64,000 nt of DNA from Marmoricola sp. (lineage in GTDB: Bacteria > Actinomycetota > Actinomycetes > Propionibacteriales > Nocardioidaceae). A model generated the notes under the pieces. That model was not told the origin of the DNA. It saw nothing but the letters and a program-made list of their open reading frames with translations, and did no database searches. Of the stretch, positions 9,658 to 13,614 are shown piece by piece (the stretch's first letter is position 1; each line of letters opens with the position of its first letter). The stretch is from assembly GCA_025964775.1 (NCBI GenBank), contig JAOPYE010000014.1, positions 124,001 to 188,000 of the forward strand, written 5' to 3'. Made by a program: the position numbers and the translations under genes.

Positions 9658-9746
9658 GGAGGCGTCGCCTAGCCCGGTTTATGGCGCCCGCCTGCTAAGC
9701 GGGTTCAGGTTAATCCCTGTCGGGGGTTCAAATCCCCCCGCCTCCG
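9658..9746 (+). tRNA. tRNA-Ser (anticodon GCU)
   Basis: This is a class II tRNA. Acceptor GGAGGCG/CGCCTCC is perfect, the anticodon stem CCCGC/GCGGG encloses CTGCTAA with anticodon GCT at 9694-9696, the long variable arm is present, and the T arm is GGGGG-TTCAAAT-CCCCC. CCA is not encoded. Confidence 0.96.
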
Positions 9747-9755
9747 CCCAGAGCG

Positions 9756-9785: not shown

Positions 9786-9962
9786 GTCCATGCGTGGGGA
9801 GCGCGGTTTCGTCGAAGCCGGCCGCGTTGCATGAACCTGCAGGAAGGTGCACTGCACATTCATGAGGTAACTGGTCTACTAGCCCGCCTCCGGGCACTCG
9901 GCAAGGATAGGTACATCCGGTTGCATCCCCTGAGCGACCGGAAAAATTGGGAGGGCACCACG

Positions 9963-10121
9963 ATGAGGAGTTTCAAGCAGTTGGTCCGTGTCGCCGCGGC
10001 CACGATCATCGCAACAGGAGTATTCGCGGGTGCCGTCAGCCCGGCCGACGCAGCTCCGGTACACAGCCATCGAACCGTCGTCGTCACCCCTATGACCACC
10101 GACACCGGGTGGGGCCCGTAG
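9963..10121 (+). CDS. Small secreted peptide precursor ending DTGWGP
   Basis: This 52-residue precursor starts at an ATG preceded by GGGAGGG. Residues 1-30 are a clear Sec signal peptide: basic MRSFKQLVR, a hydrophobic Ala/Ile/Val core, and the cleavage motif ADA before Ala31. The predicted mature peptide is 22 residues, starts APVHSHRT, ends TTDTGWGP and has no cysteine. It is far smaller than secreted enzymes, which suggests a signal, toxin or cell-wall peptide. The next gene, facing it across a bidirectional hairpin, encodes a TrmB/LuxR-like regulator. I do not know a described family for it. Function as an extracellular signal is inference. Confidence 0.7.
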   Translation: MRSFKQLVRVAAATIIATGVFAGAVSPADAAPVHSHRTVVVTPMTTDTGWGP

Positions 10122-10206
10122 GAATCCAGAACTTCACAGACTCGAGACGAGGACGCACCGTCACCCCCCAGACGTCGTCGCTCCACCTAAGGACCGTCTC
10201 GTGACC

Positions 10207-10238
10207 AAGAGCGGAGAGATCCCCCACTCTCCGCTCTT
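10207..10238. terminator. Bidirectional hairpin terminator between peptide and regulator genes
   Basis: AAGAGCGGAGAG (10207-10218) and CTCTCCGCTCTT (10227-10238) form a perfect 12-bp stem with an 8-base loop. It sits between converging genes and can terminate both. A weaker inverted repeat CGAGACG/CGTCTCG lies just before it. Confidence 0.8.
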
Positions 10239-10251
10239 GTCATGTCCGGAC

Positions 10252-11277
10252 TCAGGTATCGGACCCGGCTCCTCCGGCCGCCCGGTCCCGCGCCTTGTCG
10301 CGAATCTCCTGCTGGGCGATCGCGTAGCCGAGCTGGAAGCGGGTCTCCACGCCGTACTCGACCTTGAGCGACGCGATGTAGCCGGCGTACGTGCGGGTGC
10401 TGACGCCGACGCGCTTGGCCGACGCGTTGTCGCTGTGGCCCTCGACGAGCATGCGGACCGTCATGTTGTGGACGTCGTCGGCGATCTCGCGCTCGGTCGC
10501 TGACTCACGGTCGGTGAAGACCCGCGCCCGCTCCCAGAAACGCTCGAAGATGTCGACGATGTAGGCCACCAGGCTCGGATCGTGGACCACGATCGCCACG
10601 TGGGCGCCTTCGGCACCGGGAACGATCGCCAGGCGCCGGTCGACGACGATCAACCGGTTGAAGAACTCGTCGAGGGTGCGAACCTCGCCGCCGGCCTTGA
10701 TGACCTGGTCGACGTACTCACGGGTTGCCACGCTGCGGCGTGCGGAGTGCTGGTAGAGCGTGCGCATCTTCACGCCGCGGGCCAGCGCGCGGGTGTCCCG
10801 CTCGATCGCCTCGTCCAGGATCGCGGCCGAGCGGGCGCCGTCGGGCTGGGCGGTCAGGAGCTCGTGCTCCGCATCGCCGACAGCCGCGGTCAGGAACCGG
10901 TTGATGTTCGGCAGTCCGCGCAGCTCGACGATCGAGAGGTCTGCAGGCGCCGTACGGCGGTAGGCCAGGCCGAGCTCGGCGAAGGTGGTCGCCCAGCCGG
11001 TCGACTCGGCCAGCAGCTCAGCGGCCCGCTGCCCCATCGGCGCGACGATCCGGGACTGGACGATCGCGGGATCGACCGGCAGGTAGGTGTCGGTCGATGA
11101 GTCCAGGGCGACCAGCCCGAGATCGATCAGGAACGCGAACGTCTCGTGCTCGGGGCCGCCGGCGACGATGCGCGCGTCGTCCTTGGCGACCGCACCCTCC
11201 AGGACGATCTTCTGGTACAGGTCGCCGGCCTCGTGCTGCAGCAGCTCGCGATGCTGGGCATCGAAATCGCCGGTCAT
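10252..11277 (-). CDS. TrmB/LuxR-type transcriptional regulator
   Basis: This 341-residue protein has the layout of large actinobacterial regulators with a TrmB-like N-terminus and a LuxR C-terminal HTH. An N-terminal winged-helix region (YQKIVLEGAVAKDD..FLIDLGLVAL) is followed by a sensor-like middle (ALARGVKMRTLYQHSARRSVATREYVDQVIKAGGEVRT..DRRLAIVPG). At residues 285-325 comes a LuxR-like HTH (MLVEGHSDNASAKRVGVSTRTYAGYIASLKVEYGVETRFQLGYA). It is not preceded by a kinase gene. The ATG at 11277 was chosen as the first start before conserved sequence. It converges with the secreted-peptide gene. What it senses is unknown; the peptide is a candidate. Confidence 0.8.
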   Translation of the reverse strand: MTGDFDAQHRELLQHEAGDLYQKIVLEGAVAKDDARIVAGGPEHETFAFLIDLGLVALDSSTDTYLPVDPAIVQSRIVAPMGQRAAELLAESTGWATTFAELGLAYRRTAPADLSIVELRGLPNINRFLTAAVGDAEHELLTAQPDGARSAAILDEAIERDTRALARGVKMRTLYQHSARRSVATREYVDQVIKAGGEVRTLDEFFNRLIVVDRRLAIVPGAEGAHVAIVVHDPSLVAYIVDIFERFWERARVFTDRESATEREIADDVHNMTVRMLVEGHSDNASAKRVGVSTRTYAGYIASLKVEYGVETRFQLGYAIAQQEIRDKARDRAAGGAGSDT

Positions 11278-11337
11278 GTGCCCGATGGTCGCAGAAGGAT
11301 GCAATATCGGACACCCGGACCCCCTTGTTGACGGCGT

Positions 11338-11430: not shown

Positions 11431-13278
11431 TCAGAGGCCGAGGCGTGCCTTGAGGCCGTCGAGCTCGGTCCACAGCACGGCGGGAAGGTCGTCGCCGAAC
11501 TTCTCGAACCACTCGGTGATCTGCGGGATCTCGGCCTTCCACTCCTCGACGTCGACCCGGAGCACCTCGGCGAGCTGCTCCTCGGTCATGTCCAGACCGT
11601 CGATGTCGAAGGAGCCCGGTGCCGGCACGTGACCGATCGGGGTCTCGACCGCGGCAGCCTGGCCGTCGATGCGCTCGATGATCCACTTCAGGACGCGGCT
11701 GTTCTCGCCGAAGCCCGGCCACAGGAACGCGCCGTTCTCGTCGAGACGGAACCAGTTCACGTAGAAGATCCTGGGCATCTTGGACGCGTCGTTGTTCTTG
11801 CCCATGTCGATCCAGTGGCCGAAGTAGTCACCCGCGTTGTAGCCGATGAACGGGATCATCGCCATCGGGTCGCGGCGCACGACTCCGACCTGGCCGACCG
11901 CTGCGGCAGTGGTCTCGCTGGACAGCGTCGCTCCCAGGAACGTCCCGTGGGTCCAGTCGCGCGCTTCGGAGACCAGCGGGATCGTGGTCTTGCGACGTCC
12001 ACCGAAGAGGATCGCGTCGATCGGCACACCGCGCGGGTCGTCGTACTCGGGTGCGAGCATGTCGCACTGCTTGATCGGCGTGCAGTAGCGGCTGTTCGGG
12101 TGGGAGCTCAACTCAGCTGATGCCGGAGTCCAGGGCTCGCCCTTCCACGACGTGGCGTGCGCGGGCGGGTTCTCGAGTCCCTCCCACCAGACGTCGCCGT
12201 CCTCGGTGAGGGCGACGTTGGTGAAGACCGAGTTGCCCTTGTTGATGGTCTTCATCGCGTTCGGGTTGGTGTGCTCGTTCGTGCCGGGAGCGACCCCGAA
12301 GAAGCCGTACTCCGGGTTGACCGCCCACAGCCGGCCGTCCTCGCCGATCCGCATCCAGGCGATGTCGTCGCCGATCGCCTCGTCCTTCCATCCGGGGATG
12401 GTCGGCTCGAGCATCGCCAGGTTCGTCTTTCCGCACGCGCTCGGGAAGGCCGCGGCGACGTACTTGGTGACGCCCACCGGCGAGGTGAGCTTGAGGATCA
12501 GCATGTGCTCGGCCATCCAGCCCTCGTCGCGTGCCATCACCGACGCGATCCGCAGCGCGTAGCACTTCTTGCCGAGCAGCGCGTTGCCGCCGTACCCGGA
12601 CCCGAAGCTCCAGATCGTCCGCTCCTCGGGGAACTGGACGATGTACTTGACCTCGTTGCACGGCCACGCCACGTCGGCCTGGCCCTCGGCGAGCGGGTGA
12701 CCGACCGAGTGGAGCGCCGGCACCCAGGGCACCTCGTGACCGGCGGCGTCCAGCTCTTCCATCCTGCGCAGGACCGGCGTGCCCATCCGGGCCATCACGC
12801 GCATCGAGGCGACGACGTACGCCGAGTCGGTGATCTCGACGCCGAACATCGGCTTGTCGGCCTCGAGGTGGCCCATCACGAACGGGATCACGTACATCGT
12901 CCGGCCCTGCATGGCTCCGGCGTACAGCCCGCGCATGATGGTCTTCATCTCGGCGGGGTGCATCCAGTTGTTGGTGGGCCCGCAGTCCTTCTCGTCGATC
13001 GAGCAGATGAACGTCTTGTCCTCGACACGCGCGACATCGCCTGCGTCGGAGGCCGCGTAGAACGAGTTGGGCTTCTTGCTCTCGTCGAGCTTGATGAACG
13101 TGCCGGTCCCGACCAGGAAGTCGGTCAGCTCGGTCCACTCCTCGTCGGAGCCGGTGCACCAGTGAACGGCATCGGGCTGCGTCATCGCGGCGACGTCGGC
13201 GACCCAGTCCAGGACGGCCTGGAAGGTCGTGGGTGCGTCCTGGGTCGGCGCGGTGGTGCTCATGGCTTCGGCGGTCAT
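11431..13278 (-). CDS. pckG: GTP-dependent phosphoenolpyruvate carboxykinase
   Basis: This 615-residue enzyme has the usual length of GTP-PEPCK. It interconverts oxaloacetate plus GTP with PEP, CO2 and GDP. The kinase P-loop FPSACGKTN contains the reactive Cys282. Other signatures are [53 protein letters not shown] and [15 protein letters not shown]. The ATG at 13278 has AAAGGA upstream; a second ATG five codons later is less well placed. A dispersed repeat lies downstream. It is the canonical bacterial/animal-type enzyme, unlike the second PEPCK at 18693-20534. Confidence 0.97.
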
Positions 13279-13536: not shown

Positions 13537-13609
13537 GCGGCTGTAGCTCAACGGATAGAGCATCTGACTACGGATCAGAAGGTTCGGGGTTCGAATCCCT
13601 GCAGCCGCG
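13537..13609 (+). tRNA. tRNA-Arg (anticodon ACG)
   Basis: The cloverleaf is complete: acceptor GCGGCTG/CAGCCGC, D arm TAGCTCAACGGATAGAGCA, anticodon stem TCTGA/TCAGA around CTACGGA with anticodon ACG at 13570-13572, and a T arm with TTCGAAT. CCA is not encoded. Confidence 0.96.
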
Positions 13610-13614
13610 CACGA

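Follow-up and report, generated by a model that had tools for sequence, protein, structure and literature searches.

A short secreted-type peptide and its neighbouring TrmB-like regulator as a candidate peptide-signalling pair in Nocardioidaceae and Streptomyces-type genomes

Is a tiny peptide with a signal sequence, encoded opposite a large orphan regulator, the signal to which that regulator responds? The question is raised by the window, a stretch of 64,000 nucleotides analysed here from a 3.9-Mb genome whose closest named kin in the scan are Marmoricola and Nocardioides records (best regulator identity 86%, records of the source genome itself possibly being left out of that scan). The pair and the elements belonging to it are arranged as follows.

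9963-10121, plus strand: secreted-type peptide precursor of 52 residues, of which 1-30 form the signal peptide and 31-52 are predicted to be released
10101-10112, plus strand: core tetrapeptide DTGW (precursor residues 47-50), the part constrained in multi-copy precursors
10203-10241, no strand assigned: hairpin between the convergent genes, from the fold of 10122-10251
10252-11277, minus strand: regulator of 341 residues (winged helix, long helix, PLD-like domain at about residues 110-250, C-terminal helices of an HTH)

The precursor has a basic N-terminus, then a hydrophobic stretch, then SPADA/APVHSH (signal-peptide calls here and throughout were made by eye and with a simple heuristic script), and the predicted cut after residue 30 would leave 22 residues that contain no cysteine and end in DTGWGP; a GGAGG-type ribosome site lies upstream of its ATG. 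The sequence-only reading had described such a 52-residue precursor with a signal peptide and a 22-residue product, and the ORF agrees with it. The hairpin that it placed between the two convergent genes is also real, since the intergenic region folds at -48.5 kcal/mol where shuffled sequences average -34.4 (z -3.95), and is perhaps a bidirectional terminator. Its picture of a two-gene layout isolated between tRNA genes holds only in part, as tRNA-Ser (9658-9748) and tRNA-Arg (13537-13610) do flank the peptide gene and the regulator, but PEPCK (11431-13278; Pfam PEPCK_GTP and PEPCK_N) shares the interval. The regulator start was taken as ATG 11277, an alternative upstream GTG giving 367 residues, and the source genome has a single regulator copy at E up to 0.001. 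Importer or protease genes were not recognised among the few neighbouring genes examined.

An AlphaFold2 model of the regulator from a 46-member alignment (pLDDT 87.8, pTM 0.61) consists of an N-terminal winged helix, a long helix, an alpha/beta domain and C-terminal helices. Foldseek matched this model to TrmBL2 (5bpd, E 5.7e-16), to TrmB and to phospholipase-D-fold proteins (e.g. the PLD Nuc, 1byr, E 2.7e-7), and a profile search of solved structures agreed with it (TrmBL2 5box, E 1.6e-5). The regulator therefore has the TrmB-like order of a winged helix followed by a PLD-like sensor domain, in agreement with the winged-helix N-terminus and sensor-like middle proposed from the letters alone. 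Pfam at E up to 0.01 found TrmB in 4 and PLDc_2 in 3 of the 46 members, and 30 of the 46 matched HTH_23 and not the GerE-type HTH; some relatives are annotated as LuxR C-terminal-related or LuxR family. Neither the window peptide nor the regulator (P0002) had a Pfam or NCBIfam match above curated cut-offs. The PLD-like domain is probably a ligand sensor rather than an enzyme, because the window regulator seems to have FNRLIVVD (from residue 206) where PLD enzymes carry HxKxxxxD. No signal peptide or membrane segment was seen by eye, so the regulator is taken as cytosolic. In the family, 265 of 341 genomes have a relative at E up to 1e-10; in the class, the profile matched 161 of 394 genomes, and weak matches there may be distant kin. 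One group (coded g46), with matches to one peptide-linked regulator in 103 of 121 sampled genomes (E up to 1e-40), is taken as Streptomyces because 53 of the 55 plasmid records with relatives are Streptomyces.

Within Nocardioidaceae the set comprised 152 regulator ORFs (loci L001-L154 less L031 and L032), 112 of them distinct, and 106 of these 112 face a convergent ORF with signal-peptide character and a D-x-x-W core (97 by a stricter motif); 81 precursors have one core and 25 have two to six. In secreted-type short ORFs the strict motif was found 97 times in the expected slot, which totals 84,407 bp, and once in the 516,973 bp outside it at the same loci, the single exception being the partner of L019 itself. 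Among the six regulators outside the 106, L019 does have a partner, L025 is cut off by the edge of its contig, the DTSW of L109 and L127 stands in frames where no signal peptide was recognised, and no partner peptide was found at the loci L084 and L152. PEPCK is also present at 98 of the 112 distinct loci, so the pairing in this family is mostly one inherited syntenic locus that represents few independent events, and the independent support comes from outside Nocardioidaceae.

Among 68 Streptomyces-type and other loci (L155-L222, not deduplicated) the best-matching peptide gene is divergent from the regulator in 37, convergent in L195 and L209 and on the same strand in L204; convergent, divergent and same-strand orders of the pair all occur. 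The best matches at L177 and L191 were judged false. No DxxW peptide was present at 26 loci, and when these and L177 were rechecked with [DNE]xxW nothing was found in 25 of the 27, a clear precursor appearing only in L205 (NSSW twice) and a single doubtful NLGW in L221, so that many relatives of the regulator are not peptide-linked. At L215-L222 (families coded f18 and f29) there is no clear core-bearing peptide within 800 bp, and these relatives may sense something else. Deduplication left 32 divergent pairs, and the divergent Streptomyces-type precursors carry 1 to 10 tandem cores. A further 90 Streptomyces-type loci, picked by similarity to one peptide-linked regulator and thus overstating the general rate, yielded a divergent DxxW precursor in 72 (68 of these new and distinct), and the other 18 have an NSTW, NTSW, NSSW, EISW, EPSW or EPTW precursor at the equivalent position with the operator kept. 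These N- or E-first loci are L257, L260, L261, L263, L266-L268, L277, L295, L298, L299, L314, L316, L317 and L319-L322, to which L205 may be joined.

The pair is also carried by a phage.

KU958700.1 21172-22447: Streptomyces phage Chymera pair (L223), gp29 and gp30, divergent, near integrase and immunity repressor genes

The regulator has a relative in gp29 (E 4e-16, with 32% identity over 56% of P0002), and gp30 is a 59-residue secreted-type peptide with two DPGWG; both are annotated as hypothetical, and the genes after them are gp31, gp32 (integrase) and gp33 (immunity repressor), a placement reminiscent of arbitrium. No relatives were found when viral contigs were scanned with query A1, and the phage regulator as query found three (L229-L231; regulator identity 100, 88 and 68%), each of which keeps both genes and two DPGWG. 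Repeated co-occurrence with a conserved peptide tail, which had been set beforehand as the check on the proposal, is thus seen in two large groups and a phage, with three different gene orders. A Kitasatospora plasmid also has a regulator with a divergent peptide ending in DDTSWGG. On a Streptomyces plasmid (L224, 2525-4246) the regulator is accompanied by a same-strand short peptide ending in GDSAWG, upstream of genes for a 2-ketoarginine methyltransferase and beta-methylarginine biosynthesis, and on another plasmid (L227, 2127-3535) it diverges from a secreted-type peptide that lacks the usual core and ends in CPQDDEWHVGCP, with an AfsA-related gene coming after the regulator.

The precursors themselves indicate which part of the peptide is under selection. 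Of 205 distinct DxxW precursors 106 have at least two cores, and in 102 of these 106 the cores are of a single type, whereas 38 different cores occur across the 205. In the 53 precursors with at least three cores, 369 of the copy-to-copy differences at the two inner core positions were synonymous and 4 nonsynonymous (D and W, fixed by the search, being excluded), compared with 526 and 2085 at the six flanking positions examined, these counts running over all copy pairs, which are non-independent. Identity between copies was 0.30 at the residue before the core, 0.76 immediately after W and 0.41 or less farther out. The synonymous excess in the inner core and this identity profile point to a selected unit of four or five residues, conserved as protein beyond what recent repetition of the DNA would give. 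The DDDW core at L193 is probably a false match and was retained in the counts.

Upstream of the peptide genes lies a conserved TGCA-rich element, and the window has a related, shorter element ahead of the regulator.

9828-9856, plus strand: predicted operator of the peptide gene, with TGCA at 9828, 9838, 9848 and 9853 (spacing 10, 10, 5)
11290-11304, minus strand: TTGCATCCTTCTGCG element upstream of the regulator start, of the form TGCA-N6-TG[C/A] at -25/-26 in L001-L008

In Nocardioidaceae TGCA-N6-TGCA was present in 93 of 106 peptide upstreams against 4 of 789 control windows, and the longer TGCA-N6-TGCA-N-TGCA in 85 of 106 against none of 789. Streptomyces-type peptide promoters have the related element AGGAACATGATGC, found in 23 of 32 promoters of the first set and 55 of 68 of the second, compared with 9 of 816 random windows of the first-set loci, some of which hold true sites. 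The regulator would be the protein that binds these sites. Its own upstream region contains the full operator in only 6 of 106 cases, and the shorter form at -25/-26, seen in L001-L008, is rare across the remaining set; the TTGCATCCTTCTGCG element is a possible autoregulatory site.

If the regulator reads the peptide directly, residues of its sensor domain would be expected to vary together with the core, and two codons of the window (counted from ATG 11277) are of interest in this respect.

10858-10860, minus strand: codon of regulator residue 140 (Leu in the window), predicted reader of peptide position 2
10795-10797, minus strand: codon of regulator residue 161 (Asp in the window), candidate reader of the Ser/Thr hydroxyl at peptide position 2

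By identity-matched contrasts over 138 pairs, column 140 came top of the 341 columns for Streptomyces and second for Nocardioidaceae, and only the Nocardioidaceae ranking exceeded permutations that ignore phylogeny (the Streptomyces top score of 0.54 was below the 95% limit of 0.69). Met140 accompanies Ser at core position 2 in both groups. Applied to 68 distinct, previously unused pairs from the same Streptomyces-like genus, the rule was right in all 68, the 25 Ser2 pairs all having Met140 and the 43 others none, and it is also followed by 18 of the 18 N- or E-first loci. Over 118 Streptomyces-type rows, training rows included, Ser2 occurs with Met140/Asp161 (47 of 48), Thr2 with Val140/Asp161 (22 of 22), Pro2 with Leu140 when 161 is Val, Met or Ile (15 of 15), and Ile2, Leu2 or Val2 with a residue 140 that is Val, Ile or Ala and a residue 161 that is Gly, Ser, Ala or, once, Val (32 of 32); the lone DDDW row has Leu140/Val161. 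The phage regulator, aligned by eye against P0002, has Leu140 and Ala161, in line with Pro2 of its peptide. In all 206 DxxW rows Met140 is absent from 6 of the 63 Ser2 rows (five of them from Nocardioidaceae) and is found in no row with another residue at position 2.

Kinship was taken into account with a FastTree tree of the 206 DxxW rows from which the columns in question had been omitted. It gave 20 independent Ser2 contrasts, in which Met140 changed in the same direction in 16.7 on average and in the opposite direction in none (median p 1.5e-5), and the association also appears inside each group alone (p 0.016 and 0.0039). The corresponding contrasts for a hydroxyl at position 2 and an acid at residue 161 were 5, 0 and 3, which is borderline (p 0.0625). 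Three further associations looked convincing in the raw tables and failed the independent-contrast test, namely Gly3 with a small residue 184 in Streptomyces, and Gly3 with Asn126 and Thr3 with Glu161 in Nocardioidaceae. Arg occupies position 149 of the regulator in all 106 Nocardioidaceae rows, in 77 of 100 Streptomyces D-type rows and in none of 7 Streptomyces N-type rows, and its link to the first core residue is only a lead, since the N-type may be one clade. The AlphaFold2 model places residue 140 in a strand (139-144) and residue 161 in a helix (151-166) of the PLD-like domain. A larger side chain paired with a smaller peptide residue, and an acid with a hydroxyl, would be chemically sensible. 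The covariation of residue 140 with peptide position 2 thus supports, at the level of sequence, direct recognition of the peptide by the regulator.

An adjacent precursor gene, cores that are uniform within precursors and diverse between them, a shared operator and the covariation all speak for a signal read directly by the regulator, and we consider it likely that the two genes form a peptide-signalling module in which the pheromone core binds the PLD-like domain of the adjacent cytosolic regulator. Our confidence depends mainly on the held-out test of residue 140, the independent contrasts and the synonymous counts in the inner core. Gene pairing, core constraint, a conserved operator and covariation were observed; the remaining parts of the model (secretion, processing, import, binding, the sign of regulation and the physiological output) are inferred. 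Sec would export the precursor and proteases would release short peptides containing the core [D/N/E]-x-x-W (DTGW in the window), which would then re-enter the cell, presumably via an oligopeptide importer; re-import is the simplest route because the regulator looks cytosolic while the precursor is exported. The peptide would bind the PLD-like domain of the regulator encoded next door, with residue 140, and perhaps 161, reading peptide position 2. The regulator would then act at the TGCA-rich sites ahead of the peptide gene, so providing feedback, and presumably has further targets; in the closest relatives of the window it may act also upstream of its own gene.

The main rival is sensing before export, in which the regulator would bind the core on the unexported, cytosolic precursor and so report Sec capacity or precursor dosage within one cell. 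In its favour, the regulator seems to be cytosolic and the core is already present in the unexported precursor; such a monitor also accounts for the covariation equally well. Multi-copy precursors, whose cores are alike within loci and of 38 kinds between them, and carriage by phages are a better fit to a signal between cells or genomes, and we regard sensing before export as unlikely. The peptide could also be an extracellular effector (antimicrobial, adhesive or structural) whose gene is controlled by a regulator that senses something else. A conserved operator upstream of the peptide gene would be equally expected under such an arrangement, and many relatives of the regulator lack a peptide of this kind nearby, but it predicts neither the covariation of a sensor-domain residue with peptide residue 2 nor constraint confined to four or five residues, and we consider it improbable. 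Finally, synteny and common descent might by themselves have kept the two genes together, with no functional link. This would suit the PEPCK-linked site of Nocardioidaceae, but against it stand the 20 independent contrasts, the purifying selection acting on the repeated core, the three gene orders and the copies in plasmids and phage, and we give it hardly any weight. The candidate peptide-signalling pair of the sequence-only reading is thus supported at sequence level by recurrent pairing, a conserved core and the covariation of residue 140 with position 2.

In the RRNPP systems a secreted short propeptide is encoded alongside its cytosolic TPR receptor, and a phage version exists as arbitrium (AimR/AimP). 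The present pair shares with these Firmicutes systems a gene for a short propeptide (its secretion here being predicted) that adjoins the gene of a presumed cytosolic receptor, and with arbitrium a phage version, which in Chymera lies close to integrase and immunity repressor genes. It differs from them in its occurrence in Actinobacteria, in its tandem [DNE]xxW cores, in the residue code for peptide position 2 and in its receptor, which combines a TrmB-like winged helix, a PLD-like domain and a C-terminal HTH in place of TPR. No TPR family was among the Pfam matches of the 46 members, and no TPR protein among the Foldseek matches listed (50 of 943). By analogy the present system would work like the RRNPP quorum-sensing systems (see PMC10075063), but it is not assigned to them because the TPR feature is lacking. 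Archaeal TrmB, TrmBL2 and TbsP have the same winged helix and PLD-like sensor fold, but the present regulator has a C-terminal HTH in addition and is paired with a secreted-type peptide. TrmB is a sugar-binding protein, and the structure of its sugar-binding domain (2f5t) is among the Foldseek matches of the regulator model. The yeast alpha-factor precursor likewise has several identical signal copies between variable spacers of one secreted protein, whereas the present precursors are bacterial, their core has four or five residues and no fixed processing motif was noticed. In Streptomyces, the ABC transporter BldK imports an extracellular oligopeptide that triggers the bald cascade (PMC11303876). 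The present peptides would resemble that signal as extracellular oligopeptides, and BldK is a candidate importer for them.

Searches of open-licence PMC papers brought up no description of a system of this form, in agreement with the earlier statement that none was known, and no family of cytosolic peptide-pheromone receptors in Actinobacteria. Nor do we know of any described family of such receptors in this phylum. On balance we favour the view that these pairs belong to a class of peptide communication that has not been described before and is common in both Streptomyces and Nocardioidaceae, with tandem [DNE]-x-x-W words and PLD-fold receptors. Its simple residue code would join Ser2 to Met140/Asp161, Thr2 to Asp161 and either Val140 or Leu140, Pro2 to Leu140 and a hydrophobic residue 161, and Ile2, Leu2 or Val2 to a small residue 161. 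There would be dozens of separate channels, and paralogues might listen in on them; the phage version might feed into the lysis-lysogeny decision. Most clinical antibiotics come from Streptomyces (PMC12680351). If the proposed class is real, its ligands could be read from sequence and made as short peptides, and these could be used to look for gene clusters or developmental steps under their control and to ask whether the signal imported by BldK is one of them. The residue code would yield sharp predictions, and the phage pair would suggest arbitrium-like logic beyond Firmicutes.

Two to five paralogues of the regulator often surround one peptide gene in Streptomyces-type loci, as in the 16 loci L163, L165, L167, L174-L176, L179, L180, L197-L199, L202, L203, L207, L208 and L211. 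The regulator adjoining the peptide gene obeys the residue code there, and the other paralogues carry different codes and may listen to other peptides; the outermost paralogue has Val140/Ala161/Gly184 in 14 of the 16.
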